The position numbers and the translations under genes are program-made. A DNA stretch of 40,631 nucleotides from Fibrobacter sp. (GTDB lineage Bacteria > Fibrobacterota > Chitinivibrionia > Chitinivibrionales > Chitinispirillaceae), in assembly GCA_012523595.1 (NCBI GenBank), contig JAAYIG010000241.1, positions 1-40,631 of the forward strand. The letters run 5' to 3'. A model generated the notes under the pieces. The model was not told the origin of the DNA. It saw only the letters and a program-made list of their open reading frames with translations, and did not search any database. Of this stretch, positions 4,786 to 27,889 are shown piece by piece (positions within the stretch are counted from its first letter, which is position 1; every line of letters begins with the position of its first letter).

Positions 4786-4861
4786 AATATAAGGAGAGTA
4801 ATCACCGGAATCCTGTTAATTTTGCCGGTCTTGTGCATTTTCTGTTGAACTTTAGTTCAAC
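4786..4861 (-). promoter_or_regulatory. Promoter of GH10 xylanase: class A palindrome plus -10 box
   Basis: The palindrome GTTGAA-N6-TTCAAC (4844-4861) is extended to TGTTGAA/TTCAACA. On the minus strand it is followed after 52 nt by TATATT (4791-4786), giving a predicted leader of about 57 nt. No TTGACA-like -35 box is seen, which suggests an activator-dependent promoter. The flank GAAAATGCA after the palindrome recurs at the GH27 promoter (10613-10640). Confidence 0.65.
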
Positions 4862-4870
4862 ATTTTTTCT

Positions 4871-4892
4871 GAGGCGGCATAAGTGCCGCCTC
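4871..4892. repeat. GGCGGCAT-type palindromic repeat, second clear copy
   Basis: GAGGCGGCA and TGCCGCCTC form a perfect 9-bp stem around a 4-nt loop. It sits between the terminator of the GH127 gene and the promoter palindrome of the xylanase gene. It is related to 1892-1915. Confidence 0.55.
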
Positions 4893-4897
4893 TAGCG

Positions 4898-4923
4898 AAA
4901 AAAAAGCCCGGTGAACCGGGCTT
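4898..4923 (-). terminator. Rho-independent terminator of the GH127 gene
   Basis: On the minus strand an 8-bp stem AAGCCCGG/CCGGGCTT with a TTCA loop is followed by eight T. It lies about 40 bp after the stop codon at 4964. Confidence 0.9.
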
Positions 4924-4963
4924 AGGAAACAAAACCGGCTTGCGATACCGGTTCTGATCAGGC

Positions 4964-7603
4964 TCAATAGACCTGGAAGAGTTTCTTCGAAATCGTCTGA
5001 TTTCTGGACTTGATCTGTATGGTGTAAACACCCTTTTGTGTTATTGCAGGTATGTTGTTAATAACCAGGTTTTCAGAAACTGCCTTCATCTCCGTTATCC
5101 GTTTTCCTGACAACGAATATATTGCAATTCTGCGTGAGGGATCTTTTGCCCCGAATGACAATTTCAGGATACCATTTTGGCTGTTTATGGAAAAACCGGC
5201 AGGTAGTTTTTTCTGCACACTTTCAGGCGTATTCACCGCGTCTTTTCTCAATAACCGCACATAGAAGACTCCTCCTACCATACCGGTAGATGCCTGGAAT
5301 TTGACAGTGATCTCATCTTTACCGGATACCATGCTGTTGGGAATGGGATACTCCTGATTGATGAACTGATCTTTGTTCCATTTACCGACAATGTTTTCGG
5401 TGACAAGCTTCTCTCCATCGATAAGGATATCGAATGTACGGGTACATCCCTCATTTCCCCAGTACCTTACCATAAGAGAGAGATCTTTTTCTCCATTTGT
5501 AAGCAGGTTATAACTGAAAAATCCGCCGTTTCCACCGCTGCAACTCCCGGCATCACGGTAAAATTCACCATTGTGGCTGCCGGTCTGGGAGTTTTCAGAT
5601 TGCAAATTGTGATCTACTTCAGGCTGCTGCTCACCTGGAGCGACCTTATCTATTGTTCGCCTGTCAAGTATGAGTAACTCTTCTTCGTCTTCAACGCTGC
5701 CACCCTCCGTTAGCCAGTAAATCATATAGCGGGAATCGTGAATGCGGAAAAACGGCTCAAGAACAAGCTGAGAGCCGGTCCAGTTTCCGATCAGTCCCTG
5801 AGAGGTAAAGGTCATCTGCTGACCGTTACCGCGAACAAGTTTGGATGGAATTGATGTCCGGCTGCCGAGAAGTTTAGGTGCTGAGTTCAGAGAGTAAAGA
5901 GCTCCGCTGGCAATGTGTCCCCATCTGCCTGCATCTGCTATAAGGCCATTGAGGTCCCGGTTTTCGGTTTTTGCTCCCAGAAGAATCGGACCGTGCATCA
6001 AAGCCACATAAGAGGGGACATTGGGCATCTCCTCAATTCTGGTGTGCATTGGTAGAATCACAGTTACGACCTCACCATTGCTCCATGTCCTGTCGATTTC
6101 ATAATAGGATGAAGGCTGTGAAGTTGAAGGGAGTGTGTCTGTTCCTATGATAATTTTCAGGGAACCTGCAGGAACCCAGAAGGGATGACGGATAAGCAGC
6201 TTGAACCTGGATGAAGAAGCAGTGCTTATGGTCAACTGGGTGCGTTCCTCATCGGGAAAACGGGTCTCCTGCCTGATCTTTACCCCTTTATCTTTCCAGT
6301 TAAGCTCGGATGCGACAAACAGATTAACAAAAAGAGAGTCGCTCTTGCGGGAATAGATAAGCTGGCTGTACTTGCCGTGATTTTCCATTCCTGTACCCAC
6401 ACAGCACCACATCGCTACATCTGGAGCAGAATAGACTCTGTAATGACGCGGACGGGCTGGAGTAAAATAAACGTATCCTCCATGGGTGGGGTGCTGAGAT
6501 GAGAGAATATGGTTGAACATCGTGCGTTCATAGAAATCGACGTATCTCGCATCATTTGTCATGCGAAAGAGCCCTTCCGAGAGCTTGAGCATGTTATGAG
6601 AATTACAGGTTTCCGGCCCCTCCCGTTCTGTTGTGTAATCGATGCAGTCTGCAGCTGGGGGAAAATGCTCTCTTCTGCTGTTGCCGCCGAAGGCAAGGCT
6701 TCTTTTTCCCGTCACTGTTTCCCAGAAAAATCTTGCAGCTTTGAAGTATGTGTTATCGTTATCCATTTCAGCTATGCGCTGAAATCCAACAGCCTTTGGT
6801 ACCTGGGTGTTTGCATGCAGGTTGTCAAGATTGTCGGTTCCCGATGACATAGGGGTGAGAATTGTCCTGTGAGAGAGCTTTTTTGCCATGGTGAGATATT
6901 TGGTATCCTTGGTCATCTGGTATGCATCGGCGTAGACCTCATTGATGCCACCGTGTTCATTCCCGAGCATCCCCTGAATCTGGTTATCGGATAGCCCGGA
7001 GAGGATTTTGATCCCCCAGTCACAGAGCTTTAAAAACACCTGCCTTGCAGTTTCGCTGCCACCGTAAAGCCAGGCATCCCTGAGCCCTGCATAGGTTTTG
7101 TGGATATTATACCAGGGTACCCAGTAATCCCAGACCTTCCCTGTATTACCTTTTTTTATCTCCCGCCACAGTGGTTTTCCGTTGGGGATGCCGCTGACAT
7201 ATCCCACAAAATCGGCATCTTTACCATTTGCATCCTGACACTTCTTAAGTTCATCAATCATATAATCCATACGCTCTTTACATTGTGCATCACCTGTCGC
7301 AGCATAATGTATCGCAAGAGCGGAGAGATAATGTCCCCCGACATGCCCGTCCAGACCGGCCCAGTTGGAATAGTTTGACACTCCTTTGGTCGAAAGACCG
7401 GCATCAGCACGATAACAGTAAAGCAGACGGTCGACATTGTATTTCATTAAATGGCTTATGTTGAGATCCATGGAGTGTTTAAACGGGCCATCCAGAAGCG
7501 TGACATCACCGAGCGGAAACTCATTGGTATAAAGTTTGTCCTGTGCAGACGCGTTGATTGTCAAGAGCATCACAGCAGTCAAGTAAAGAAAAAACCTGTT
7601 CAT
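4964..7603 (-). CDS. Secreted GH127 beta-L-arabinofuranosidase-type enzyme with sorting domain
   Basis: 879 residues. GH127 enzymes release beta-L-arabinofuranose with a cysteine nucleophile held by a zinc site. The signal peptide is at 1-20, cleaved ASA/Q. The (alpha/alpha)6 domain starts with LYTNEFPLGDVTLLDGPF and carries the metal/catalytic residues Glu331 and Cys333 (GPETCNSHNM) and the Cys400-Cys401 pair (MWCCVGTGMENHG), matching the E-x-C plus CC pattern of characterised HypBA1. A beta-sandwich region follows, then at about 680-795 a DUF6805-like C-terminal domain, then a sorting domain ending in KKLFQVY. The SD AAGGAGG is excellent. It lies downstream of lipoprotein gene I on the same strand, with a 200-bp gap that holds a large palindrome. 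Family is firm; exact linkage specificity is inferred. Confidence 0.92.
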   Translation of the reverse strand: MNRFFLYLTAVMLLTINASAQDKLYTNEFPLGDVTLLDGPFKHSMDLNISHLMKYNVDRLLYCYRADAGLSTKGVSNYSNWAGLDGHVGGHYLSALAIHYAATGDAQCKERMDYMIDELKKCQDANGKDADFVGYVSGIPNGKPLWREIKKGNTGKVWDYWVPWYNIHKTYAGLRDAWLYGGSETARQVFLKLCDWGIKILSGLSDNQIQGMLGNEHGGINEVYADAYQMTKDTKYLTMAKKLSHRTILTPMSSGTDNLDNLHANTQVPKAVGFQRIAEMDNDNTYFKAARFFWETVTGKRSLAFGGNSRREHFPPAADCIDYTTEREGPETCNSHNMLKLSEGLFRMTNDARYVDFYERTMFNHILSSQHPTHGGYVYFTPARPRHYRVYSAPDVAMWCCVGTGMENHGKYSQLIYSRKSDSLFVNLFVASELNWKDKGVKIRQETRFPDEERTQLTISTASSSRFKLLIRHPFWVPAGSLKIIIGTDTLPSTSQPSSYYEIDRTWSNGEVVTVILPMHTRIEEMPNVPSYVALMHGPILLGAKTENRDLNGLIADAGRWGHIASGALYSLNSAPKLLGSRTSIPSKLVRGNGQQMTFTSQGLIGNWTGSQLVLEPFFRIHDSRYMIYWLTEGGSVEDEEELLILDRRTIDKVAPGEQQPEVDHNLQSENSQTGSHNGEFYRDAGSCSGGNGGFFSYNLLTNGEKDLSLMVRYWGNEGCTRTFDILIDGEKLVTENIVGKWNKDQFINQEYPIPNSMVSGKDEITVKFQASTGMVGGVFYVRLLRKDAVNTPESVQKKLPAGFSINSQNGILKLSFGAKDPSRRIAIYSLSGKRITEMKAVSENLVINNIPAITQKGVYTIQIKSRNQTISKKLFQVY

Positions 7604-7682
7604 AATGCCTGTCCTCCTTTTTTAAGACGATGTATCTTTCGGTTAATGATTTATGTCCTTGTAACAGTTTTCTCACTCTTCT

Positions 7683-7768
7683 TTTCGGTATCGGTATCTG
7701 TATCGAAAATTCAAGGATCGGTTGTAAATATGTGATTACAAAATATCGATTCCGATACCGACCCCGAA
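7683..7768. repeat. About 86-bp quasi-palindrome upstream of GH127
   Basis: The left part runs TTTTCGG, CGGTATC, GATCGG, TTGTAA. The right part mirrors it as TTACAA, CGATTCCGATACCG, CCGAAAA. The core is TTGTAA-N8-TTACAA (7722-7741), an 18-20 bp TGT..ACA palindrome like the promoter operators, but a -10-like TAAATC on the minus strand (7653-7648) is 68 nt away, so the standard spacing does not hold. The arms consist of GATNCC hexamers also seen at 19036-19053. It could be a terminator for the lipoprotein gene, an operator cluster, or both. Confidence 0.6.
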
Positions 7769-7804
7769 AACAAAAGGTATCGGTTTGATATATGAGGCAG
7801 ATAT

Positions 7805-9538
7805 CTACTTTCTGAACTCCACCAGTGCATCATCCGCCTTCTGATTCATAAAGCACAGTTTTACCCAGTCCTCACTATGGGCAATGCTTGACACCCGAAC
7901 TTCATCGATCAACCCGTTAAAAATCGACCATCCCTGAATGAATGGGATTTCCACAGATCTGCCATGGCTGCCGATGGTGAAATTGTCAGTTGAATTTCTT
8001 TCATACTCACCCGGCATCAATGCAGCTTTGTCAACTACCAGTCTCCCGTTTATGTACAGACTTTGATTCGTGCCATTCCGCACACCTGTCAAGTACACCC
8101 ATTCTTTTGCTCCGGGCGCAGGCGGAACTGAATCTTCGGAATACTCCCAGCCCAACTGGTTCTGGAACTCTACAAATTCCCAGGTTGCCCGGTTATTCTT
8201 AAGACATTTGAATTGCAGGTAGTACTGTTCGTGGCCTTTACTCGCGATAGCGCGGAAAATGGAGTCGATAGTGTCAGCCTTCACCCAGCAGGATATCGAG
8301 TAGAATCCATCCTCAGAAAAATTCAAGCGGCTGTCTGCTGTATTGGGCATTGTGATATAGGAAGAGGTTCCGTCAAATGACCTCGCCCCGCCTATTGCTC
8401 CGTCAACTCTGGATTCTTCTGATGTGCCCACAGGTAATCCGTGGTAGTGGTTTGGTGTTGCATCGAGGGCTGGATCGGTCCCTTTACCTGAGAGATGCCA
8501 TACTCCCTGAAAAGCATATGCCGTATCAAACACAGCGCAACCATCGGATTCACTTTCCGCATCGGGATTTCCCCAGTACATGATGATAACCTGTAAATTG
8601 TCATTTCCATATACAGTGTCAACTTTGACCCAGATCTCCGCTTTCCGGCCTTTTGCATCCCACTTTTCAATTTCGTAAGGAAGCGGTTTACCATTTTCTT
8701 TTACAAATCTCAAATCTCCACCATCCAGTCTCGACTGGCTGAAATCGAAATTATCCCCGTGCAAGCGGATAAGTACCGGGAAATCAGTGATGTCGCTGTC
8801 TACACCGGCCCCTGATTCAGTTGTATTCAGGTAGATTCGCCTGGAGTAATTAAAACTGGCAAGATGGTAAAAATCGATTGTACCGGCTTTTGTCGTTTCA
8901 CCGGACTTTACGGTAATGCTATCGATTCCAACGGAGGATGAAGTGTCCGCGGATGACACTGCACGTAAAGTGTAAGTTCCATGCGGGAGATCATCGATAA
9001 CAAATTCCCCTGTCGCCGTATCACAAGTCACTGTTCGTTCCAAGCCATAGATCTGGATAAACACGTTTCTGTCAGATGAAGCGAGAGATCCCTTAATGGC
9101 TCCTGAAGGACGAAGAGTATCTGACGGGAGATAAACTGTGGAGTCCTCGGCATTGATTGTACAGTTCAGAAGAACTGCGTTCCTTGAACCATCATTGACC
9201 TCGATAGAATAGGCGCCAGGCTCGAGTGAATCGATAGAAAAGATTCCAAGGGAATCAGTTCTGGTGTCAACACGTGTGATTGTTGATTTTCTGAGAGCAG
9301 AACCTGAGAGAGAGGGTGTGTAATTGCTGGGACGCAGATAAACTGCAGCCTCAGAGGCAAAACTGCCGTCACTGTTGTAGAGTGTACATACAATACGCCC
9401 GTTCCCGGCATGCGATCCGGTCCCTGCGATATTATTTGAGGCGCACTGCAGAAAAAGAAGCGCTGCAGAAATACAGCAGAGATTTGCCAGAAAGGATACT
9501 CCCGATGAATTCTTCCGCAGCGCAAGAATCTTTATCAT
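7805..9538 (-). CDS. Lipoprotein I of the TIGR02147 cassette: DUF2341 plus LamG-fold surface protein
   Basis: 577 residues from the ATG at 9538. The start was chosen because AGAGGAG lies 6 nt before it and because the ATGA overlaps the stop of the upstream TIGR02147 gene. The hydrophobic N-terminus ends LLFLQC with Cys32 as likely lipidated residue (the -1 Gln is not canonical). Residues 45-220 hold two carboxypeptidase-regulatory-like beta-sandwich repeats. DUF2341 spans about 230-330 (YSRRIYLNTT, EIEKWD, YWGNPDA), and a LamG/concanavalin-type domain spans about 345-575. The family has no catalytic site that I can see; glycan or surface binding is inferred from the LamG fold. No sorting domain. 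It is more like lipoprotein III than II in the LamG part. Confidence 0.8.
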   Translation of the reverse strand: MIKILALRKNSSGVSFLANLCCISAALLFLQCASNNIAGTGSHAGNGRIVCTLYNSDGSFASEAAVYLRPSNYTPSLSGSALRKSTITRVDTRTDSLGIFSIDSLEPGAYSIEVNDGSRNAVLLNCTINAEDSTVYLPSDTLRPSGAIKGSLASSDRNVFIQIYGLERTVTCDTATGEFVIDDLPHGTYTLRAVSSADTSSSVGIDSITVKSGETTKAGTIDFYHLASFNYSRRIYLNTTESGAGVDSDITDFPVLIRLHGDNFDFSQSRLDGGDLRFVKENGKPLPYEIEKWDAKGRKAEIWVKVDTVYGNDNLQVIIMYWGNPDAESESDGCAVFDTAYAFQGVWHLSGKGTDPALDATPNHYHGLPVGTSEESRVDGAIGGARSFDGTSSYITMPNTADSRLNFSEDGFYSISCWVKADTIDSIFRAIASKGHEQYYLQFKCLKNNRATWEFVEFQNQLGWEYSEDSVPPAPGAKEWVYLTGVRNGTNQSLYINGRLVVDKAALMPGEYERNSTDNFTIGSHGRSVEIPFIQGWSIFNGLIDEVRVSSIAHSEDWVKLCFMNQKADDALVEFRK

Positions 9539-10389
9539 TGAGTCTCCTCTTTTTCTTCTGTTTTCTCTGTCAAAGGAAAGAGCTGAAAGTTGCATTGACA
9601 AACCATTTCAGAAATGTCGGTATCCTCCAGGACCATAGCCATCAATTCCTCTTTAAACGATCTGATCCGCTCCTTTATGCGTTCATAACACTTATGTGAT
9701 AAGCCAAATGTAAGAGAGCTGATTTCTCTTTGCCGGGGTTCAAAACGCTCCAGTGCATCTTTCGCAAGAGAGAGCATCTCGGAGTGGAAATTCCTCAGGA
9801 TAAGAGATCTCATTTCATATTCAGAGGAGATCATCGGGTCGGCAGGCTGAAGTTTCCTGTCAGGATCGCGGCGCAGGATTCCCAGTCTCAGCATCGTTTC
9901 AATCGATTTTCTGGCCTGTGAGGCAGTTATACCCGGGATACATTTTTTGGCGATCCAGTCATAATCTTCCCTGAAATCCGGCAGTGTCACAAGTTCCCGT
10001 ATCGCGCTGTGATACCAGTTCCGGAAAAACTCATACCGGCTCTCATCCAGAATTTTTATATCGCAATCCCGCCGCAGACGCTGCATACGGGTGAAATGCA
10101 GGTTTTTTTCGTAGTTTGTTTTACAATTGACAAACTGTACGATGGCGCCGAAGTATTCCGTTTCCCTTTGTGTCAGATTCATGGCTGCAGCATACTTTTT
10201 CATCACTGCCAGGCTGAGCCGTCGTCTGCCGGAAATGATGTCTTTGAACATGCTTTGAGAAACACCGGCTTTTGCGGCAAAGGAACGGAAGGAGAATGAT
10301 TTAGATGATTTTTTCTGAAAAGAGTAGTAGTCTTTCAGAAGAGAGTGATAATCGGTGTATAGGAAGATGTTGAATTTTCCGGTTTTCAT
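9535..10389 (-). CDS. TIGR02147/DUF4423 family putative transcriptional regulator I
   Basis: 284 residues from the ATG at 10389. The longer frame to 10479 only adds a hydrophobic stretch that the paralogs lack. The N-terminus FNIFLYTDYHSLLKDYY matches the paralogs. Residues 34-60 look like an Xre-type helix-turn-helix with recognition helix VSQSMFKDII. The rest is the DUF4423 region, with an EFFRNWYHSAIREL segment and a winged-helix-like part, ending CQCNFQLFPLT. Cytoplasmic. Its stop overlaps the start of the lipoprotein gene (ATGA). The family was defined as a large paralogous group in Fibrobacter succinogenes; I know of no assigned function. Regulation of class A promoters is my inference. 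No SD is visible, and TATTAT ends 7 nt before the ATG, so the mRNA may be leaderless. Confidence 0.85.
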   Translation of the reverse strand: MKTGKFNIFLYTDYHSLLKDYYSFQKKSSKSFSFRSFAAKAGVSQSMFKDIISGRRRLSLAVMKKYAAAMNLTQRETEYFGAIVQFVNCKTNYEKNLHFTRMQRLRRDCDIKILDESRYEFFRNWYHSAIRELVTLPDFREDYDWIAKKCIPGITASQARKSIETMLRLGILRRDPDRKLQPADPMISSEYEMRSLILRNFHSEMLSLAKDALERFEPRQREISSLTFGLSHKCYERIKERIRSFKEELMAMVLEDTDISEMVCQCNFQLFPLTEKTEEKEETQ

Positions 10390-10396
10390 ATATGGG

Positions 10397-10537
10397 ATAA
10401 TATAAGCAAAAAAGTGCTGTGCTGGGAGGAAAAATGCTGGTAAGATTATAAATATTGCGAACAAAAAAAATACTAACACGATGATTTAAAAGGAGATAAA
10501 AGAAACAGCTATGAGCGAACAAAAAAATTTGCGAACA
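10397..10537 (-). promoter_or_regulatory. Promoter region of TIGR02147 gene I with TGTTCGC direct repeats
   Basis: On the minus strand the -10-like TATATTAT (10404-10397) directly precedes the ATG. Upstream are two pairs of TGTT half-sites in direct orientation: TGTTCGC at 10537-10531 and 10521-10515, and TGTTAG at 10477-10472 with TGTTCGC at 10462-10456. The last half-site ends 51 nt before the -10, the same distance as at other promoters in the locus, but the arrangement is direct rather than inverted. Confidence 0.45.
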
Positions 10538-10612
10538 GTTGAGCTGCAGGAAAAACCATTGAAACAGCCACAGAGAACACGCAGAGGAGAGGGGAATGGG
10601 AAAGAGAAGAAT

Positions 10613-10688
10613 GTTGAAGTAATGTTCAACGGAAAATGCATAGAATCCCTTCTAAATAAGCAAAATCTTCTATAATGCGCTTTATATT
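10613..10688 (+). promoter_or_regulatory. Promoter of the GH27 gene: class A palindrome plus -10 box
   Basis: GTTGAA-N6-TTCAAC lies at 10613-10630. Exactly 52 nt later is TATATT (10683-10688), the same gap as at the GH10 promoter, and the predicted leader is about 59 nt. A second TATAAT at 10671-10676 is 40 nt away. The flank GGAAAATGCA after the palindrome matches the GH10 promoter. The site lies between divergent genes and might also serve cassette I. Confidence 0.65.
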
Positions 10689-10753
10689 ATAGATTTGAAA
10701 CGGAAAATGTTCAACGCTCAATATGTCTTTTCGACAATATGGGGGAGAATAGT

Positions 10754-12619
10754 ATGATGAGAAAAGTTTCGGGTATCATGAGTTTAATTGTTTTTCTGGG
10801 AGCCTGTCCTGTTTCCCTGGTATCGGCTCTGGATAACGGGCTGGCCAGGACGCCTCCGATGGGATGGAACAGTTGGAACATATTTCATGAAAATATAAAC
10901 GAGAATCTGATAAAGCAGATTGCCGATGCCATTGTTGAATCGGGAATGAAAGATGCCGGTTATATATACCTCAATCTTGACGACAACTGGATGGCTTCAT
11001 CACGGGATGCAAATGGAAAGCTGAGGGCTGATCCGAACCGTTTTCCAAGCGGAATGAAGGCGCTTGGGGATTACATTCACTCAAAAGGGCTCAAGTTTGG
11101 TATTTATGGAGATCGCGGTCTCAGAACATGCCATCACTATAATTGGGGGATAGCGGGATCACAAAGCGGAAGTTACATGAAAGAGGAACTGGACGCCAGG
11201 ACTTTTGCAGAATGGGGTGTTGACTATTTAAAGTATGATAATTGTGAGCCTGCCCCCGGTTCAGATCAGCAGCAGGATTACGAAAGGATGAGAGATGCTC
11301 TTGCAAAGAGCGGCAGGGATATCGTTTTCAGTATCTGTGCCTGGGGTTTTGCGTCCTGGATGCCTAAAACCGGCAATTTATGGCGTTCTACAGGTGATAT
11401 TACCGATAAATGGGACAATGGTAATGATTGGTTCAGAGGGATAATCAATGCCGTTGATGGAAATGCAGACCTTGCGCAGCATGCCGGACCGGGTGGCTGG
11501 AATGATCCGGATATGCTTGAAATTGGTAATGGCGGGTGTACTACGGAGGAATACCGGAGCCAGATGAGCATGTGGTGTATCATGGCTTCTCCGCTGATTG
11601 CCGGCCATGATGTCAGGAAAATGTCACAGGCTACAAAAGATATCCTGCTTAACAGAGAAGTGATTGCTATAAACCAGGACTCCGCGGGTATTCAGGGAAC
11701 CAGGATAAGTCGGAATGATGGCCTTGAGGTCTGGTGCAAACCGCTTGGCTCCAGAAACGGGACTACAAAGGCAGTTGCATTATTAAACAGAAACAGTAAT
11801 ACGAGGGATATTACTGTCAGGTTTGCCGATGTGGGTCTTTCAGGAGAGATAACTGTGCGTGACCTCTGGGCCAAGGCTGACAGGGGCAGTTTTACCGGTT
11901 CATATACCATGTCGGTACCTTCTCACGGAACCGGCTTGCTTAAGCTCTCAAGCGGTCCTGCGAAGCCAATATCCGCTTTTTCAAAAATAGAAGCGGAGCA
12001 CTACTCTCTTCAGTCCGGGGTTCAGACGGAAACCTGTTCTGAGGGCGGAGAAAATATTGGTTTTATTGAGAATGGCGATTATGTGGCATTCAACAATGTC
12101 GATTTTGAAGAGGGCGCAGACGTCTTTGTTGCCAGAGTGGCAAGCGCCAACGATAATGGCGGTACCATCGAAATACGGCTTGACAAACCTGATGGCACAC
12201 TTGCTGGTTCCTGCACTGTTGAAGGCACGGGCGGGTGGCAGACATGGACCGAAGTCAGTTGTAATCTGACGGAAATAAGCGGAAAGCACAATCTGTACCT
12301 GCGATTTACCGGAGGAGAATCGTACCTGTTGAATCTCAACTGGTTCCAGTTTACTGTAAGTACCGGAGAAAGGAATCTTGTCAGACAGCCGGAAATCAAC
12401 AGGTTTAAAGCAGAGATGTCAAACGGCAATATAGCGATCAGCCCATCTGCAAGCCGCGTCAGATTCAATGCATCTGTATACATGCCGGATGGACGGCTGG
12501 TTACCAGCAGAAACAATATCAACGGCGTCATCACAATTCCTGTAAAAAGCAAGGGAATTTATCTGGTTAATATCGAATGTAACGGGCAGGTTGAAAAGAA
12601 AATGCTTTCATACTTTTAA
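10754..12619 (+). CDS. Secreted GH27 alpha-galactosidase-type enzyme with CBM6 and sorting domain
   Basis: 621 residues from the ATG at 10754, preferred over 10739 because GGGGGAG precedes it at good distance. It removes alpha-linked galactose (or beta-L-arabinopyranose, which some GH27 enzymes accept) from side chains. Signal peptide at about 1-25. The barrel shows RTPPMGWNSWN, NLDDNW, nucleophile Asp162 in YLKYDNC and acid/base Asp215 in RSTGDITDKW, followed by GGWNDPDMLE. A beta-sandwich ends the catalytic part, then CBM6 (about 410-535: KIEAEHYSLQSG, ENGDYVAF, LNLNWFQF), then a sorting domain (about 550-621). First gene after a class A promoter; the GH95, CE1 and GH43 genes follow on the same strand. 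Confidence 0.94.
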   Translation: MMRKVSGIMSLIVFLGACPVSLVSALDNGLARTPPMGWNSWNIFHENINENLIKQIADAIVESGMKDAGYIYLNLDDNWMASSRDANGKLRADPNRFPSGMKALGDYIHSKGLKFGIYGDRGLRTCHHYNWGIAGSQSGSYMKEELDARTFAEWGVDYLKYDNCEPAPGSDQQQDYERMRDALAKSGRDIVFSICAWGFASWMPKTGNLWRSTGDITDKWDNGNDWFRGIINAVDGNADLAQHAGPGGWNDPDMLEIGNGGCTTEEYRSQMSMWCIMASPLIAGHDVRKMSQATKDILLNREVIAINQDSAGIQGTRISRNDGLEVWCKPLGSRNGTTKAVALLNRNSNTRDITVRFADVGLSGEITVRDLWAKADRGSFTGSYTMSVPSHGTGLLKLSSGPAKPISAFSKIEAEHYSLQSGVQTETCSEGGENIGFIENGDYVAFNNVDFEEGADVFVARVASANDNGGTIEIRLDKPDGTLAGSCTVEGTGGWQTWTEVSCNLTEISGKHNLYLRFTGGESYLLNLNWFQFTVSTGERNLVRQPEINRFKAEMSNGNIAISPSASRVRFNASVYMPDGRLVTSRNNINGVITIPVKSKGIYLVNIECNGQVEKKMLSYF

Positions 12620-12675
12620 ACCGTTAAGAGTAAAATCAGAAAGCAATTATTCTGATTCAAACCAGAAAGTTCTTA

Positions 12676-12722
12676 TCTGTATCTGAATTATCCGGGGTGA
12701 TAATTCAGATACAGAGTTTTTA
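12676..12722 (+). terminator. Rho-independent terminator after GH27
   Basis: A perfect 17-bp stem (12676-12692 with 12699-12715), loop CGGGGT, followed by GTTTTTAT. Its position only 64 bp before the next start suggests it may be leaky, or that the GH95 gene has its own promoter, for which I see no clear palindrome. Confidence 0.8.
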
Positions 12723-12785
12723 TCTCCAAATCTGAATAGCGGTTGCGATTGAACTGAAATGTAGTCACAATGGGAGAGTGTGTGC

Positions 12786-15371: not shown

Positions 15372-15440
15372 AGTTTTTTTTCTCTTATCAGAATCCGGAT
15401 TAGATTCGGGAAATATTCTAAACCTTAAGAAGGAGGACCT

Positions 15441-16886: not shown

Positions 16887-16941
16887 TTCTGACCCGGTTA
16901 AATGTGTAAACAGAGTCGTTTTTATAGCTTTTTGATTTGAC

Positions 16942-16985
16942 CAAACGCCGGGATCTCCTTTACGGGGATAACGGCGTTTGATTTA
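16942..16985 (+). terminator. Terminator after the GH95-esterase pair
   Basis: CAAACGCCG (16942-16950) pairs with CGGCGTTTG (16972-16980), and an inner ATCTCC/GGGGAT extends the stem. A short T-rich tail follows. Confidence 0.65.
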
Positions 16986-17037
16986 TCTGTGGATAAGAGG
17001 GTTTTTGTCCTGATAATGTAGACAGGAAAAGAAAAGT

Positions 17038-17043
17038 ATAATG
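17038..17043 (+). promoter_or_regulatory. -10 box of the GH43 gene at 17097
   Basis: TATAAT is followed by a predicted leader of about 47 nt. A weak 19-bp TGTCCT...TAGACA palindrome (17006-17024) lies directly upstream, overlapping the -35 position rather than about 50 nt away, so it does not fit the locus rule. Confidence 0.4.
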
Positions 17044-17096
17044 ATAGTGGGTGTCTTGCAGCCAGGGCACCGGATATGGAAAGGCAGGGTCTAAAT

Positions 17097-18770
17097 ATGA
17101 AAAATGTGATGCGCTTAATATTCTGCTTGCTGGTATTATACATCTGCATTCTGCCGTGTTTTGCGGAAAACCCAGTCGTACAGACATGTTATACTGCCGA
17201 TCCGGCTCCGCTGGTACATGATGGTGTTGTATATCTGTATGTCGGCCATGATTCATCGGCTGCTCCCAATAACAGCTATTTGATGCGCTATTACAAGTGT
17301 TATTCCTCAAAGGACATGGTGAACTGGACAGATCATGGGATCGTTCTCAACATGAAGTCAGTATCCTGGTCCGGAGGGGAGGCAAATGCAGCTCAAGTCG
17401 CTTACCGCAACGGCAGTTTTTATTTCTATACGTCAACTAATGCCACAGGTGGAATTGCAATAGGTGTCGCAGTATCCAAAAGTCCTCTGGGGCCGTTTAC
17501 CGACATCGGACATCCGCTGATTACTGCCAGTCAGATGAACGGGTGCAATGCTACCCACAGTTGGCGCGGCCTCGATCCGGCTGTATTTATTGATGATGAC
17601 GGGCAGGCTTATCTTTACTGGGGAAACAATGTCCTTTACTGGGTAAAACTCAATGAGAATATGGTATCTACAAGCGGTACGATAAGTTGTCTGGATGCGA
17701 AGAATGCGGCTTTTGGTCCTGATTTCGAGGAAGCACCATGGGTTTACAAGCGGTATGGTAAATACTACCTGGTTTATGCATCGGGATTTCCGGAAAGCAT
17801 TCATTATTCGATGAGTTCAAGTCCAACAGGGCCCTGGACTTACAAAGGGCAGATAATGAAAACTCAACCCGGTGGGGTAAGCAACACTATTCACCCGGGG
17901 GTGGTCGATTTCCAGGGGAACTCCTATTTCTTTTTCCATAATGCCGGTCTGCCGGGAGGAAGTAGTTACAGACGTTCGGTATGCATAGAGCAATTTGTTT
18001 ACAATGAAGACGGTACGATACCTCTTATCAGTGAAACAAGTGAAGGGGTGATAAATGGGGTCGGTAATCTTGATTCTTATGATACAATTCAGGCTGAAAC
18101 GATCTGCTGGGGATCGGGTATCGAAACAAAGCCCTGCAGTGATGGCGGAATAATGGTCACCTCGATTTCAGATGGTGATTATATCAAGGTAAAGGGTGTC
18201 GATTTCGGTATCGGCGTATCAGGATTTGAAGTCCGTGCAGCAAGCGGTTCCTCAGGCGGAACTATTGAACTTCGTACCGGAAGCCAGACAGGAACACTTG
18301 TCGGCACCTGTACTATCACCGGTACCGGCGGATGGAATACATGGAAGACTTTTCAGTGCGATATTACCAACTGTATCGGTATAAAAGATTTTTTTCTGGT
18401 TTTCAGAGGTTACGGTGAGCCATATCGTCTTAACTGGTACAGATTCAGAAGGGAAGCAACCTCCGTATCTCAGGATGGAAATGACCCCTGGAAACATGTA
18501 TCAGGAAACCTGAACTTTTCATCCGGTGTGGAATTGAACGTGAAAGGCACAACATTATTTGTAAAATTTGCGGCATCGGAAGGGAAACCAGTGACTCTGA
18601 AGTTTTATAATATGATGGGTGAAGTTGTGCGATCAGAAGTTTTACAAACCGGTTCCAATAACCGCATCTACAGGTGTGATATTTCAGGAATTCCCAGTGG
18701 TTTTTACATCGTTAAAATCGGTGACAGGGAGAGTGTTTTTAACTCTTCGAAGGTGCTTGTAAGTCATTGA
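17097..18770 (+). CDS. Secreted GH43 (arabinoxylan-type) with CBM6 and sorting domain
   Basis: 557 residues from Met at 17097; the upstream ATG at 17076 would only add seven residues before the signal peptide. Five-bladed propeller enzyme removing arabinose or xylose side groups. Signal peptide at about 1-23 (PCFA/E). Catalytic acids by motif: Asp35 in YTADPAP, Asp160 in RGLDPAVFIDDDG, and Glu212 in FEEAPWVYKR (the paralogs have EGPW). CBM6 (about 330-455) opens with DTIQAETICWGSG and ends with LNWYRF. The sorting domain lies at about 480-557. It is the shortest and most diverged of three paralogous GH43-CBM6 genes in the window (with 27948 and 35913). An odd octamer repeat array begins 5 bp after its stop. 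Confidence 0.93.
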   Translation: MKNVMRLIFCLLVLYICILPCFAENPVVQTCYTADPAPLVHDGVVYLYVGHDSSAAPNNSYLMRYYKCYSSKDMVNWTDHGIVLNMKSVSWSGGEANAAQVAYRNGSFYFYTSTNATGGIAIGVAVSKSPLGPFTDIGHPLITASQMNGCNATHSWRGLDPAVFIDDDGQAYLYWGNNVLYWVKLNENMVSTSGTISCLDAKNAAFGPDFEEAPWVYKRYGKYYLVYASGFPESIHYSMSSSPTGPWTYKGQIMKTQPGGVSNTIHPGVVDFQGNSYFFFHNAGLPGGSSYRRSVCIEQFVYNEDGTIPLISETSEGVINGVGNLDSYDTIQAETICWGSGIETKPCSDGGIMVTSISDGDYIKVKGVDFGIGVSGFEVRAASGSSGGTIELRTGSQTGTLVGTCTITGTGGWNTWKTFQCDITNCIGIKDFFLVFRGYGEPYRLNWYRFRREATSVSQDGNDPWKHVSGNLNFSSGVELNVKGTTLFVKFAASEGKPVTLKFYNMMGEVVRSEVLQTGSNNRIYRCDISGIPSGFYIVKIGDRESVFNSSKVLVSH

Positions 18771-18775
18771 AGAAA

Positions 18776-18879
18776 TACGATAACACGACATTACGAGTGT
18801 ACGAGGGCGCGACGGAACGACAACACGACGACACGAGGATGCGACTGTATGACAGAACGACAATACGACAGTACGATGG
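18776..18879. repeat. Degenerate 8-bp tandem array, 13 units with invariant CGA core
   Basis: Thirteen uninterrupted octamers fit the pattern NRCGANNN (most often NACGACNN). Every unit has CGA at positions 3-5 except unit 10, which has TGA. Examples are TACGATAA, CACGACAT, AACGACAA and TACGACAG. It lies at the 3' end of the GH43 gene, in a convergent intergenic region. It is not coding, because the period of 8 changes frame at every unit. Confidence 0.85.
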
Positions 18880-18967
18880 GATTTGCTTTGTCAACTTATG
18901 ATTATCTGACGGTTTTTTTTAATTTGCGATTGCGAGTACTGCTTCGCTGAACGCGAAAGGAGTCATT

Positions 18968-18995
18968 AAGACTTTTGTTCAGAAACAAAAGTCTT
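18968..18995. terminator. Perfect 12-bp hairpin, possible bidirectional terminator
   Basis: AAGACTTTTGTT pairs with AACAAAAGTCTT around a 4-nt loop. There is no T-run on either side. It lies in the roughly 345-bp convergent gap between the GH43 genes, which otherwise holds the octamer array, a GATNCC iteron and the terminator at 19087. Confidence 0.5.
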
Positions 18996-19035
18996 GTTGG
19001 ATCACTTTGTAGAGAAAAATGGACAGAGAACAATC

Positions 19036-19053
19036 GATGCCGATTCCGATACC
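19036..19053. repeat. GATNCC hexamer iteron
   Basis: Three hexamers in a row: GATGCC, GATTCC, GATACC. The same hexamers build the arms of the quasi-palindrome at 7683-7768. Confidence 0.4.
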
Positions 19054-19086
19054 GGCTCTGATTTGAAGAACATATAGTGGTGCTTA

Positions 19087-19109
19087 AAATCCCCCTGACA
19101 GGGGGATTT
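19087..19109 (-). terminator. Terminator of the GH43 gene at 19117-21621
   Basis: On the minus strand a 9-bp perfect stem AAATCCCCC/GGGGGATTT with a 5-nt loop is followed by TTAAG. It begins 8 bp after the stop codon. Confidence 0.75.
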
Positions 19110-19116
19110 GATGCTG

Positions 19117-21621
19117 TTATTTTGTCAAAATGACACTGGATGTCTTAATAATGCTGTTTCCGCTTGTGATATTGAGAATATAAGAACCATCGGGCAGATT
19201 CGAAAGGTTCTGGACACAGACCCCGGCACCACCGATTATGTGGGTTACTGAACGGACAAGGTTTCCTTTCATGTCGTAAAGATCGATCCTTACAGACTTG
19301 TTTTTATATGCGGGTAACCTGATCTGCAACACTGAGTTTTTGCATTTAATATCCGCGACAGAAGAGTTGAAACTCTTTATTTTTGCGGTGCTGTTTGTGG
19401 GATCGTACTCCTTTACCGAGATATTGTCCAGAGTTACTGCCGGAGAAGAGGTCCCGAAATTGAAACCCAGCCGACCATTGGCATCTGTTGGAGCCTCCAT
19501 GGTAAACACAAAGGAGAATGTCTGTTTTGTGGTAGTAAGAGAAAAACGTTTCAGCTCATCCAGGTAGCTTGTCCATGGATTAACCGCCATCTCAACATTT
19601 ACCTCCAGGTCACGGTCTGCTGACGCGAATGCGTCAAATGACACCCGATATGATTTCCCTTGTTCAAGGAACAGTCCAGGCTGAACGAGCTGAATCTGAT
19701 AGTTGATCTCAGAGGTTTCTGTGATATTTATGCGGCATTCTCCGCTAACCACGCTTGCTGTCGCAGCTCCGTCCCAGACATTCAGTGTCCACTCTTCAGT
19801 TCCGGAACTGAAATCCCCGTTCAGCACCAGATTACCGTCAGCAGTACTACGGGCAAAGAGTGCATTCACTGTCTTATCACTGTTCATGGTGATAGTGAGC
19901 GGATTTTCACTGCTGCTTATACCATCTCCGCTCCAACCTTTAAACACGTATCCATCTTCAGCCTGAGCAGTGAGAGTAACAGGAGTATTTTCCTCATAGC
20001 CGGATTTATCAGGAGAACGGCTGACAGTTCCTTTACCTGTAATATTGACACTGAGCCTGTATCCGCTCTCAAGGCTGATTTCATCAGTATATGAACTTCC
20101 GACCTTGTACCAGTCAAAATCTGCTATACCGCCGGTGCTTTTGGTCGCGTAGATGAAAAGAGCAAAACGATAACCCATGAAATGAGGCATATCGTAGCTC
20201 ATCTGAAGTGTGTTGCCGATCTGGGTCCAGGAGGTACCGTTGAGGCTGTAGAAGAAAGTGGCCTTATCGGTTCTGTTTGTAAAGTCCATATCGATCCGCA
20301 GGTAGACAGTGTTCTGATTGAGTGCGGCAGTTGCAACCTGTGTCGCTCCATTGTGCATGACTATTGTATTTGTAGTACCGTTTTTCTTTACTCCTACAAA
20401 GCCGTATTTTGCCTGCAAGGCTCCCAGACCCGCGCAATCACCATCCTTGAGCCCGCTGACATCGAGGCAGGTCCTGGCTGAACTCTTAGGTCCAAATGTC
20501 CTTTGAGTCAGGAGGTTACGTGCGGAAACGAAATTGTCACTGGCACGGCTGGTTTTGATCCTGAAAAAGCCGGGTCGCTCCGTAAGGGACCAGTGGGTGT
20601 TAACCGGATTATGGTTCCACTGCCATTCCAGTTTGAGTGTGCTTCCCGAGAAATCATCGGATGTCACAACGCCTGTTCCTGCAGCGGAGGAGACATAAGG
20701 CATGTTGAAGCTGCTTGGCGCGACACCGTTATTGAAAACAGGCCAGTTGTCCTGCCATGTTACTGGAACAAGCCAGGGGCAGCGTCCAACTGATCCATTA
20801 TCCTGAAACAGATAACCCATCCAGTTGTTATCCTTCATCTGCAGGATAGATCCCTGAGCCACTCCGCTGCTTCGCAGAACAACTTTTTTCTCAAATGATC
20901 CGTTAAGTGACTGGCCTCTGGAGCATATTTGTGTTCTCATACTTCCGCTTGGCCAGCAGATATTGAATATGTAGTAATAGCCGTTATGTTTGTAAACCTG
21001 TGTGCCCTCGGCCCTGAGCCCGCCTGAACCGGCAACTGAAGCAGGATCTGTGAGCAGGACTTTATTTAATCCGCCGTTCTTTACACCGGTAAGATCTGAG
21101 TTAAGTTCGATGATACGTATATCACCGCCGCCGTGGAGAACATAATTACGTCCGTCATCATCGAGCAGCAGTGACGGGTCATGCCATTGCGGCAGTTTGG
21201 TTTCTGTCCAGGGGCCGGCTGGACTGGTGCTTCTGTAAAGATGGGAGCTTCCGGATGTCGATGAGAATGTCAAAACATAAAAGGTTCCATCCTTGTACCT
21301 TATGCTGCTTGCCCATGATCCGGCACCGTAGGCGTTCTGCCCGTTGTTGAGATTCATCTTGTCGTTATTTACAAGTGTAGAATAGCAATAGGAGACGGTT
21401 TTCCAGTGTACCATGTCATCTGATTCCATAATCGGTACACCGGGATTCATGTGCATTGTTGTACTGCTCATGTAGTATTTGTCGCCAACCCGGATCATCG
21501 ATACATCGGGAACATCAGCCCAGATAATGGGGTTTGTCACAGTGGCGGCATAAACGGTGGAGATAAGGAAGAGTCCGAAGAACAGGGTAAAAACAGCCTT
21601 TTTTGCTAAATCTTTTTTCAT
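19117..21621 (-). CDS. Secreted GH43 (subfamily-12-like) beta-xylosidase/arabinofuranosidase with C-terminal concanavalin-like domain, InlB repeat, CBM4/9-like module and sorting domain
   Basis: 834 residues from the ATG at 21621. This start was chosen because AGGAAG precedes it and a normal signal peptide (ending YAA) follows; the frame to 21684 has no such support. The GH43 propeller (about 25-315) has Asp39 in ADVPDVSMIRVG, Asp148 in QWHDPSLLLDDDG and Glu205 in RAEGTQVYK. A DUF1349/concanavalin-like beta-sandwich (about 320-515, DDFSGSTLKLEWQWNHNP) is the usual C-terminal partner in this subfamily. Then come an InlB-type repeat (about 525-590), a CBM4/9-like module (about 595-745) closely similar to those of 27948 and 30314, and a sorting domain. 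It releases xylose or arabinose from xylan fragments. Confidence 0.92.
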   Translation of the reverse strand: MKKDLAKKAVFTLFFGLFLISTVYAATVTNPIIWADVPDVSMIRVGDKYYMSSTTMHMNPGVPIMESDDMVHWKTVSYCYSTLVNNDKMNLNNGQNAYGAGSWASSIRYKDGTFYVLTFSSTSGSSHLYRSTSPAGPWTETKLPQWHDPSLLLDDDGRNYVLHGGGDIRIIELNSDLTGVKNGGLNKVLLTDPASVAGSGGLRAEGTQVYKHNGYYYIFNICWPSGSMRTQICSRGQSLNGSFEKKVVLRSSGVAQGSILQMKDNNWMGYLFQDNGSVGRCPWLVPVTWQDNWPVFNNGVAPSSFNMPYVSSAAGTGVVTSDDFSGSTLKLEWQWNHNPVNTHWSLTERPGFFRIKTSRASDNFVSARNLLTQRTFGPKSSARTCLDVSGLKDGDCAGLGALQAKYGFVGVKKNGTTNTIVMHNGATQVATAALNQNTVYLRIDMDFTNRTDKATFFYSLNGTSWTQIGNTLQMSYDMPHFMGYRFALFIYATKSTGGIADFDWYKVGSSYTDEISLESGYRLSVNITGKGTVSRSPDKSGYEENTPVTLTAQAEDGYVFKGWSGDGISSSENPLTITMNSDKTVNALFARSTADGNLVLNGDFSSGTEEWTLNVWDGAATASVVSGECRINITETSEINYQIQLVQPGLFLEQGKSYRVSFDAFASADRDLEVNVEMAVNPWTSYLDELKRFSLTTTKQTFSFVFTMEAPTDANGRLGFNFGTSSPAVTLDNISVKEYDPTNSTAKIKSFNSSVADIKCKNSVLQIRLPAYKNKSVRIDLYDMKGNLVRSVTHIIGGAGVCVQNLSNLPDGSYILNITSGNSIIKTSSVILTK

Positions 21622-21687
21622 GATATTCTTCCTGTAGTTGATTTGGAATTGTATCAATGCATGATTACGAATGCGTTTCTGCATAAT

Positions 21688-21753
21688 AATATAGACTTAA
21701 AGAAGGTTTTTTACTATAGTGGGTGTGAAGAAAATGTTGAATATCTGTTCAAC
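21688..21753 (-). promoter_or_regulatory. Promoter of the GH43 gene at 21621: class A palindrome plus -10 box
   Basis: GTTGAA-N6-TTCAAC lies at 21736-21753. On the minus strand TATATT (21693-21688) begins 42 nt later, one helical turn less than at the GH10 and GH27 promoters. The leader is about 60 nt, as in those genes. The flank CATTTTCTTC after the palindrome resembles that of class B sites. Confidence 0.6.
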
Positions 21754-21874
21754 AAAAAGTGTGAGAGAATCCATTTTTTATCACAGTTTTTATGGATGAA
21801 GGGGTGGAATATTATTCCAAAATCTATGGTATTTATAAATATGGAATTGAATTTGCCTGATATTGCTCTTTCAA

Positions 21875-21893
21875 CCCAGGCCTTCAGCCTGGG
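21875..21893. repeat. Perfect 7-bp hairpin
   Basis: CCCAGGC pairs with GCCTGGG around CTTCA. It lies in the 307-bp gap between the GH30 3' end and the GH43 promoter. No U-tract follows. Confidence 0.45.
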
Positions 21894-21920
21894 ATCATGG
21901 TTGCGATTACGGTTGCATTT

Positions 21921-21971
21921 AAAAACAAAGGCCGGAAGTCGATTGTGGAACAAATCGGACTCCCGGTCTTT
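21921..21971 (-). terminator. Terminator of the GH30 gene
   Basis: On the minus strand a long imperfect stem (AAAGACCGGGAGTCCGATTT with its near-complement at 21927-21946) is followed by TTTTT. It begins about 20 bp after the stop at 21992. Confidence 0.75.
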
Positions 21972-21991
21972 TTCAGAGGGGTGTTTCTTTT

Positions 21992-23992
21992 TCAGTACTG
22001 TTTCAGGATTCTTTTGGCAAAATTACCGTTTCTGTTCTTTACAGAGATCAAGTATATGCCGGGGACAAGGTTTTTGCCCGCTAAATATTCATCAACACCT
22101 TTCCCCGCTTCCATAACAGAGCCTTTCATATCTGTAATGCGGTAACTGAATTGCCCGTCAAGCTTAATCCTGAAACCATCGATGATGCATGGACTCAGAC
22201 TGCCATCCGCCAGTCTGCTCCCATTAATGCTGGTCGGAACTTTAAACTCGACATAGTTCAGGTTCATGTAGTCAGAATCAAAGGCAATCCGCATTACGTG
22301 CTTACCCTCTGTGAGGTTGACATTTTTGACTGTCATAGTTTCCCATGTCTGCCATCCTCCGGTGTTGGGGAGATTGACGGGACCGGTTACATCTGTACCG
22401 TCCATCTCTATATGAAGTGTCTTCCCGTTACCATCAGCGGCTACACGCAGGTCAATATCGTATGCGCCAGTGGCAGCAACGTTAACCGTGTATTCCAGCC
22501 ATTCACCATTACGAATGTAGCAGATATTGTACTGCCCGGAGTTGTCGGATGTGTTTTCAATATCGACCTCATCATTTCGGAAAGTGGCATCACCCTGATT
22601 CCCATTGGCATCTGCCTCATGGAAAGCCTGCCCTTCACCACCATTATCATACTCTTCTGCCTCGATACGTCCCGGAATCTGATGAGGATTTTCTTTATAA
22701 GGGGTTTGAGGCGGCGGAGGAGTGGTTGAGCCTGTGCCGGCCAGTGTGGTTACACTCTGTGCATCCAGAGTCACACTGCATGAGCCGTTGTTGACAGTAA
22801 CTGTACCGTCATTGCTGATGTTCTTGCTTGCTGTTGTCGATATTTTTGAGAAAGATTTAACGGTTGTATTGGGAATGGAGATGTTTATTGTCTTGGAAGA
22901 TGTATTGGAATTAACCAGTACAATGACAACACTGTCTTTACCTTTATATGCTGAAACATATACATTGGTGGTTGGGTTCTTTGTGGCATCAACCCTTATG
23001 TAACCGTTTCGTATATACTTGGAGAATTGTGCCATCACATAACCGCGTTTTGTAGCTGTTCCTGCTGCTGCAACAGTGCTGCTTCCATGCCCGCCCTCTC
23101 CATCATGGATCAGAGCATAATAACGGCGCAGCGGCCAATAGACGTAAGTCTGGAATCTTCCTTCAACGAGTGCGTTGTGGATATGCACTCCCATTTCAAC
23201 GGCTTGACTCCATATATTAGCATCATTATTACTGTTTGGATAATACACCTCAGTCATCCATAGTTCTTTTCCCGCACCCTTTTGCTGGAAGAGAGGATAG
23301 GGGAAATCCCTGACTTGAGTTCCGTAAAGATGTGCTCCGAAAACTTTGACATTAGCAAGTGCCTGCGGGTCATTTAAAATCGGATCGTAAACATTTTTCC
23401 GGTACTGAAAAGACTCAGGTGTCATCAGTGGACATGAGATAAGCTTTGCATAACCCTTGATGAAATTTACTGATTCAGTTGGAGACCATTCTGTCCAATC
23501 GTGGGCGTAATCGGGTTCGTTCTGTGTAGAGATGGCATAGAGTTCAATGCCGTTATTTCTCATGTGCACTACGTAATCATTAAGGTGTTTTGCATAAGCC
23601 TCGAAGGAATTGGGATTGATTCTTTTCACACCATTGACAGTTGTAGTCATGCTGGCAGGTGGATTCCATGGTGAGGCGAACACTAAAGCCCCCAGCGCGA
23701 CGGCTCTTTTAGCTGTTTCCAAACCCTGAGACCATTCGTTTTTATTGTCTGACACATAGGTACGCAGAACTGTAAGTCCCAGTTGTCCGGGGCCATTTCC
23801 AAAGGCTAATTCCCGTTCAGAGGCATTGAGATCTTTGTACCAGTTGGGATGGTTTATCCCCCCAAATCCCCGCATCAACTGCTGTTCGCTGTTGAGGTTA
23901 ACAGTGACATTCTGTGCGGTGGTGTTGCTGGTGGTGAAAAACAGGATGCCAATGAAGAATAGAACTGCTGCTTTAAAACCAGGTGACTTCAT
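21992..23992 (-). CDS. Secreted GH30 (glucuronoxylanase-like) with CBM6 and sorting domain
   Basis: 666 residues from the ATG at 23992, 7 nt after GAGGGG; the ATG at 24007 would add five residues. The signal peptide ends TTAQ. The GH30 barrel plus beta side domain (about 30-400) starts with QLMRGFGGINHPNW and has acid/base Glu159 in STQNEPDY and nucleophile Glu248 in LWMTEVYYP. PLRRYYALI and KRGYVMAQFSKYIRNGY resemble subfamily 8, where an Arg in the first stretch binds the glucuronate branch; endo-cleavage of glucuronoxylan is therefore likely. A Pro-rich linker (GSTTPPPPQTP) leads to CBM6 (about 415-580, GRIEAEEYDNGGEG, MNLNYVEF) and a sorting domain ending KRILKQY. Its promoter carries a different palindrome, TGTACA-N7-TGTACA. 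Confidence 0.92.
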   Translation of the reverse strand: MKSPGFKAAVLFFIGILFFTTSNTTAQNVTVNLNSEQQLMRGFGGINHPNWYKDLNASERELAFGNGPGQLGLTVLRTYVSDNKNEWSQGLETAKRAVALGALVFASPWNPPASMTTTVNGVKRINPNSFEAYAKHLNDYVVHMRNNGIELYAISTQNEPDYAHDWTEWSPTESVNFIKGYAKLISCPLMTPESFQYRKNVYDPILNDPQALANVKVFGAHLYGTQVRDFPYPLFQQKGAGKELWMTEVYYPNSNNDANIWSQAVEMGVHIHNALVEGRFQTYVYWPLRRYYALIHDGEGGHGSSTVAAAGTATKRGYVMAQFSKYIRNGYIRVDATKNPTTNVYVSAYKGKDSVVIVLVNSNTSSKTINISIPNTTVKSFSKISTTASKNISNDGTVTVNNGSCSVTLDAQSVTTLAGTGSTTPPPPQTPYKENPHQIPGRIEAEEYDNGGEGQAFHEADANGNQGDATFRNDEVDIENTSDNSGQYNICYIRNGEWLEYTVNVAATGAYDIDLRVAADGNGKTLHIEMDGTDVTGPVNLPNTGGWQTWETMTVKNVNLTEGKHVMRIAFDSDYMNLNYVEFKVPTSINGSRLADGSLSPCIIDGFRIKLDGQFSYRITDMKGSVMEAGKGVDEYLAGKNLVPGIYLISVKNRNGNFAKRILKQY

Positions 23993-24040
23993 ACACTTAC
24001 CCCTCATAGATGAAAACAGGCATTAAAGATATATCAACTA

Positions 24041-24116
24041 ATTATAAAGTTTTTTTCGGGTTGTCTGTTGAAAAACCCCTTTTAAGGGGACAATTTCTGT
24101 ACATATTCTGTGTACA
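24041..24116 (-). promoter_or_regulatory. Proximal promoter of GH30: TGTACA-N7-TGTACA palindrome plus -10 box
   Basis: Two TGTACA hexamers (24098-24103 and 24111-24116), each self-complementary, form a 19-bp palindrome of the locus-wide TGT...ACA type. On the minus strand TATAAT (24046-24041) follows after 51 nt, the same gap as at class B promoters. The leader is about 42 nt. Confidence 0.55.
24071..24089 (-). terminator. Terminator-like hairpin inside the GH30 promoter region
   Basis: On the minus strand CCCCTTAAAAGGGG is followed by TTTTT. It lies between the palindrome and -10 of the proximal GH30 promoter, and downstream of the distal class A promoter, so it could stop transcripts from the distal one. 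Confidence 0.45.
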
Positions 24117-24192
24117 CGGAATATCCGGCACTTGAAATTTATCCGGAGCCCTGAGGAACTCCATTCTTATATCCCGCAGCATCTATTGATCA

Positions 24193-24257
24193 AATATAAG
24201 GAAAAGCTGAAGGAAGTACTTTGAATGGAAATAAAAAGTGTTGAAGGGATGTTCAAC
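24193..24257 (-). promoter_or_regulatory. Distal class A palindrome and -10 box upstream of GH30
   Basis: GTTGAA-N6-TTCAAC lies at 24240-24257. On the minus strand TATATT (24198-24193) follows after 41 nt, as at the GH43 gene (42 nt). The start codon would be about 195 nt away, so this could be a second, distal GH30 promoter. It is the rightmost class A site. Confidence 0.45.
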
Positions 24258-24348
24258 GAAGTACTGTTAACCAAATGATGAGTAAATTGAGGAGAAGTCT
24301 CCCGTTATGTCCAGGCCCGTTCGAAGACTCCGGTTTATCCCGCCGTAA

Positions 24349-24792: not shown

Positions 24793-24867
24793 CGTTCCAA
24801 TTCCCGGAACACTTTCTTTGGCCTCAACTCTGAAAACTGAATCAATTATACGATTTTCCTATATAAT
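24793..24867 (+). promoter_or_regulatory. Promoter of cassette II: class B palindrome plus -10 box
   Basis: CGTTCC-N7-GGAACA lies at 24793-24811 and is followed by CTTTC. TATAAT (24862-24867) begins 50 nt later. The leader to the start at 25050 would be about 175 nt, the longest among the class B genes, and contains a tiny reading frame. Confidence 0.6.
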
Positions 24868-27814: not shown

Positions 27815-27889
27815 TGTTCCAGAATATGGAACACTTTTTCCCTGTTTTCTCCGAAATTCGCGACAATCCGATATTCTGCGCCTTAAATT
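27815..27889 (+). promoter_or_regulatory. Promoter of the GH43-esterase-esterase unit: class B palindrome plus -10 box
   Basis: TGTTCC-N7-GGAACA lies at 27815-27833 and is followed by CTTTTT. The -10-like TAAATT (27884-27889) begins 50 nt later inside CCTTAAATTATT, which resembles CCTTATATTAATT at the promoters of 35913 and 37846. The leader is about 52 nt. Confidence 0.65.

Follow-up and report, generated by a model that had tools for sequence, protein, structure and literature searches.

Class I activators such as CRP bind at sites centred at -61.5, -72.5 and so on, a repressor site would usually overlie the promoter, and SinR-type proteins are mostly repressors. In the polysaccharide utilization systems (PUL) of Bacteroidota, regulation is exerted by SusR, HTCS and anti-sigma/ECF proteins. 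The locus described here shares features with each of these systems, and its most likely regulator is an unlinked protein, hereafter X, of the TIGR02147 ('Fsuc_second')/DUF4423 (PF14394) family, to which three regulators encoded in the locus (A at 9535-10389, B at 25050-25913 and a third at 37846-38745) also belong. Like the CRP-type class I activators, the system has a palindromic, putatively dimer-binding site near -62 or -73, whole-turn steps in its position and no -35 element; unlike the cAMP-binding CRP/FNR proteins, X-type regulators pair an XRE-type HTH with an unrelated DUF4423 domain. The HTH fold is shared with XRE/SinR regulators (3zkc), but the second domain differs from that of SinR-type proteins and the geometry points to activation. 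As with the PUL regulators, genes for polysaccharide degradation appear to be controlled and the regulator gene is paired with one for a surface glycan-binding protein, but X would be a soluble one-component transcription factor acting in trans on dispersed genes, without a hybrid kinase, a sigma factor or a TonB partner. The Fibrobacter literature names the regulation of CAZyme genes as an open question. Our literature search met DUF4423 only as the label of one Bdellovibrio protein and TIGR02147 nowhere, with no functional description of the family and no role, operator or target assigned to it.

The window, that is, the whole stretch of 40,631 nucleotides analysed, is contig C241 of a 4.1-Mb Fibrobacterota genome (G000), with close relatives that were submitted as MAGs of 'Fibrobacter sp.'. 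An earlier note on this DNA had described four perfect copies of GTTGAA-N6-TTCAAC (class A), which we recovered at 4844-4861, 10613-10630, 21736-21753 and 24240-24257, and its view that these are not expected by chance is supported by the lack of any match in 100 dinucleotide shuffles. No further site with 1 mismatch was found within the window, and the two window sites with 2 mismatches are at chance level. In an unbiased enumeration of all perfect 6-bp gapped palindromes of the window, class A ranked first, followed mainly by terminator-like repeats and by TGTTCCA-N5-TGGAACA (class B), located in the right half. Pattern searches of the whole genome yielded nine exact class A sites in 4.1 Mb, against about 0.34 predicted from base composition and none for the reversed control motif. 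All nine sites are intergenic (the four in the window, of which about 87% is coding, judged from their coordinates, the other five examined separately). The placement of all copies in the left block holds inside the window but not genome-wide, as the other five sites are spread over four further contigs. The earlier note would have taken a similar density of matches inside coding regions as evidence against an operator; in-gene matches do exist in some genomes, but mainly in those without the regulator or in frame 0, the latter as expected for chance V-E-x-x-F-N codons. The full operator is a 20-bp palindrome, TGTTGAA-N6-TTCAACA, and relaxing the outer G/C of its arms revealed no additional, degenerate class A promoter in the genome. 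The flanks that pairs of sites had been noted to share are real, and they reflect a promoter-proximal A/T tract that emerges once all sites are turned to face their target gene: over bp 3-7 beyond the site, each position is 82-100% A/T, versus 68-74% on the distal side.

All four window sites precede CAZyme genes, as had been proposed. On the minus strand, the operator TGTTGAACTAAAGTTCAACA (4843-4862), with its axis 61 bp from a TATATT (4786-4791, minus), lies upstream of a GH10 xylanase gene (2668-4722, minus; InlB repeat, CBM4_9 and Por secretion tail) and is conserved in G001 (L065:15365), G015 (L104:3124 and 2888) and G004 (L098:2262). On the plus strand, TGTTGAAGTAATGTTCAACG (10612-10631), again with its axis 61 bp from TATATT (10683-10688, plus), lies upstream of a GH27 alpha-galactosidase gene with CBM6 (10739-12619, plus) and also of the divergent gene of regulator A, and is conserved at an unlinked GH27 ortholog of G001 (L070:5364). 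The remaining two sites are on the minus strand: 21735-21754, with its axis 51 bp from TATATT (21688-21693, minus), precedes a GH43 gene with GH43_C2, CBM4_9 and Por tail (19117-21684, minus) and is conserved in G015 (L103:2866), while 24239-24258, with its axis 50 bp from TATATT (24193-24198, minus), precedes a gene for a GH30-like glycoside hydrolase with CBM6/CBM35 (21992-24007, minus) and is conserved in G001 (L065:7845) upstream of a 79% identical GH30. These four genes are putative class A targets. The five sites outside the window precede an alpha-L-arabinofuranosidase-type gene, a TIGR02147 regulator gene with its LamG lipoprotein gene, an esterase-like gene, a DUF362 gene and a GH62 gene. 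Conservation upstream of orthologs in related genomes was found for GH10, GH27, GH30, GH43-GH43_C2, GH62 and DUF362, with orthologs keeping the site in G001 (GH10, 72% identical; GH27, 66%, at the unlinked locus; GH30; DUF362, 78%) and in G015 (GH10, 56%; GH43-GH43_C2, 62%; GH62, 65%). We also observed a run of imperfect ACGACA/ACACGA-like repeats at 18769-18880, in the intergenic stretch that follows the GH43 gene.

Of 49 non-coding class A sites, 36 have a dyad axis that is 49-51 or 60-62 bp away from a TATATT, compared with 0 or 1 sites in control windows shifted by 5-45 bp; this hexamer was chosen after inspecting the sequences, and the spacing is replicated by the other operator classes, in which 13 of 16 TATATT distances fall at 49-50 or 59-61 bp. 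Most of the remaining class A distances are 69-71 and 80 bp, one helical turn apart. No consensus -35 element and no TTGACA were detected, positions -24 to -17 carrying at most 0.43 bit. A composite pattern (site, 38-56 bp, TATATT) found matches in 10 of 40 genomes and its reversed control found none. In those promoters of X itself whose start could be assigned, the class A axis precedes the ATG by 62-64, 73 or 85 bp. The TATATT of the X promoters stops about 7-9 bp short of the ATG, which implies that the X mRNAs are probably leaderless and that the axis is near -62 or -73. A helically phased dyad upstream of the promoter is combined with a weak or absent -35 element, and, read from the sequence, this layout is that of a class I activator, with activation itself, dimer binding and a ligand as its presumed counterparts.

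The genome encodes 23 TIGR02147/DUF4423 regulators, three of them in the window, and the distribution of the sites indicates which one is likely to recognize class A. X (G000:C16:18914-19735) is a paralog unlinked to the window, and all nine genomes with an X ortholog at at least 72% identity (G000, G001, G004, G015, G018, G019, G020, G021 and G022) have a class A site in the promoter of X itself, one side of the site being degenerate in the G001 copy. Class A promoters occur in eight of the nine genomes with X and in two of the 31 without it (Fisher p = 5e-6); of these two exceptions, the G005 site precedes that genome's 50% X homolog, and the one in G017 lies inside a gene. Throughout the phylum, class A promoters are found essentially only where X is present, and matches in the remaining genomes are at chance level. 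G022 has a second, X-like gene (66% identical) that lacks a class A site. Class A sites are also present upstream of a more distant TIGR02147 gene (G018 C145, 37% identity with X), so cross-recognition by more than one TIGR02147 regulator is possible. The obvious local candidate was regulator A (9535-10389, minus), which would bind class A and act in cis on the genes around it: its gene neighbours the targets, the site at 10612-10631 is in its divergent promoter region, and G001 has kept both the regulator and class A sites at the same locus. The phylogenetic profile nevertheless speaks against it, as its presence is not associated with class A promoters (p = 0.57), six genomes have such promoters without a close regulator A ortholog, no regulator A ortholog has class A as a conserved own-promoter site, and the genomes G016 and G017 retain orthologs (79% and 69%) with no intergenic class A site, their matches being only in genes, in frame 0. 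We therefore rejected regulator A as the class A binder, a role that we consider improbable for it, and the unlinked regulator X is the most likely cognate.

Palindromes for autoregulation are a common feature of XRE-type repressors, and the HTH is similar to that of SinR, so X could be a repressor freed by an inducer; we think this doubtful, since the centres of the sites lie some 50 or 61 bp before the -10 and not over the promoter, their spacing to TATATT shifts by whole helical turns with no -35 element, and two tandem class A sites in L104 each have their own TATATT at 60 bp. In principle, the helical spacing might instead suit a different protein that bends DNA or acts as a co-activator. 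Being inverted repeats, the sites might also be RNA hairpins, terminators or mobile-element ends, a reading that we find very hard to sustain: they lie upstream of putative start sites, their weak A/T-rich arms are followed by no T-run, their spacers are unrelated with no flanking repeat family, and they track a single regulator gene. The idea that class A is a coincidence of base composition draws on the in-gene matches that read as V-E-x-x-F-N codons and has next to no credibility, being refuted by the genome-wide count and its empty reversed control, together with the phasing and the conservation.

What the computation shows is the operator, how it is conserved and phased, and its association with X; with good confidence we propose that TGTTGAA-N6-TTCAACA is the binding site of X, acting as a class I activator of its own operon and of a xylan regulon. 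An X dimer would bind the 20-bp palindrome through its N-terminal XRE/SinR-like HTH and, with its site centred near -62 or -73, recruit RNA polymerase from upstream to a promoter with a TATATT -10 and no -35, the C-terminal domain of the alpha subunit possibly sitting on the promoter-proximal A/T tract. In this way X would activate its own operon, comprising X and a co-translated LamG/DUF2341 lipoprotein, along with a dispersed regulon for the xylan backbone and side chains (GH10, GH27, GH43, GH30, alpha-L-arabinofuranosidase, GH62 and esterase). We infer the protein-DNA contact, the sign of regulation and the existence of an inducing ligand, perhaps an arabinoxylan product. The xylan function appears lineage-specific, given that the class A regulon of G018, G019, G021 and G022 differs and comprises DUF6055, M6/M12 peptidases and InlB repeats. 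Other genera (L096, L113, L119, L121-L123, L128, L134-L136) keep the X/class A pair, with DUF6055, M6/M12 peptidase-like, DUF5695 and InlB-repeat proteins as targets; there, the regulon is rewired while operator and regulator are unchanged.

X matches its family along its full length, with an NCBIfam TIGR02147 match of 270 bits (cut-off 50) over residues 1-268 of 274 and a PF14394 match of 127 bits (cut-off 30), and the family is near-universal in the phylum Fibrobacterota (156 of 168 genomes). In an AlphaFold model of regulator A, the N-terminal helices are confident and the HTH matches DNA-bound SinR (3zkc; 60-63 residues, 2.3-2.8 A); outside the HTH the model is poor (pLDDT 70, pTM 0.43), too weak to place the DUF4423 domain. 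The PF01381 match on regulator A is weak, and X aligns through the HTH. Pfam searches on regulator A gave DUF4423 and HTH_3 only, not the cNMP-binding domain and CRP-type HTH of the CRP/FNR family, and no solved structure resembling X by sequence was found. Approximately 20 of the 23 TIGR02147 genes are followed by a lipoprotein gene, usually with a 4-bp ATGA/GTGA overlap, as in the window at 7805-9538 (minus), 25917-27578 (plus) and 38642-40390 (plus), and at L010, L011 and L039-L054 of G000. Most of these lipoproteins contain DUF2341 and LamG, and a G-G-S-E-T-T-N-G-like motif is conserved just after the lipobox cysteine. The pair constitutes a regulator plus surface-lectin module.

An operator scheme of the same kind extends over the family. 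In TIGR02147 upstream regions taken from up to 40 genomes, palindromes with 7-bp arms and a 6-bp spacer numbered 20, compared with 2.7 in shuffles; even spacers were enriched, odd ones little or not at all. The pattern YGTNNNN-N6-NNNNACR is present in 28 of 88 upstream regions versus 0.48 (maximum 3) in shuffles, and only positions 4-10 from the axis take part in dyad pairing. Subgroup half-sites include TGTTGAA, TGTTGCA, TGGTGAC, TGTAGTC, TGTGGAC, TGTGGGC, TGRTGAA and CGTTGAT; half-site positions 4-7 are always common to regulators whose N-termini are at least 60% identical and rarely to more distant ones. The more similar two regulators are, the more similar are their operators (Mantel r = 0.56, 0 of 5000 permutations; 0.50 without class A). 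For 32 of the 88 regulators (e.g., L011:400-414), the start of TATATT precedes the ATG by 12-16 bp, implying leaderless mRNAs as a conserved trait of TIGR02147 genes.

The right block of the window fits this scheme with another operator. Regulators of the 25050 type have a 19-bp operator, TGTTCCN-N5-NGGAACA, which is class B, a sister class of A, with TATATT at 60 bp in the G001 and G016 orthologs of regulator B (25050-25913, plus); in the window a degenerate class B site (24793-24811, plus) lies upstream of this gene. Regulator B is the candidate class B binder, and it probably binds the class B operator TGTTCCAGAATATGGAACA (27815-27833, plus) upstream of a GH43 gene (27948-30248). Another class B operator (35768-35786, plus), with its axis 60 bp from TATATT (35837-35842), is upstream of a GH43-CBM6 gene (35913-37553), and the third local regulator (37846-38745) has its own palindrome, TGTTCCGTTATAATGGAACA (37762-37781, plus), with its axis 61 bp from TATATT (37833-37838). 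As the operator of the 25050 type is that of the right block, control is probably in cis for this block and in trans for the left one. In the DNA upstream of the GH62 gene (L014, C124, 15208-15339), a class B and a class A site are 114 bp apart, which suggests the integration of two regulators at one promoter.

For a near-universal family to which no function had been assigned, these observations together supply a specific operator along with a candidate regulator acting in trans and a list of targets, and the operator scheme lets the binding sites of other TIGR02147 paralogs be predicted. We see an even chance that the whole family in Fibrobacterota, often with 20-40 paralogs per genome, consists of parallel one-component activators, each with its own 19- or 20-bp palindrome, a variable HTH, a fixed class I geometry and a co-translated surface LamG lipoprotein, which together would form a polysaccharide-sensing switchboard that chooses the fibre-degrading enzymes.
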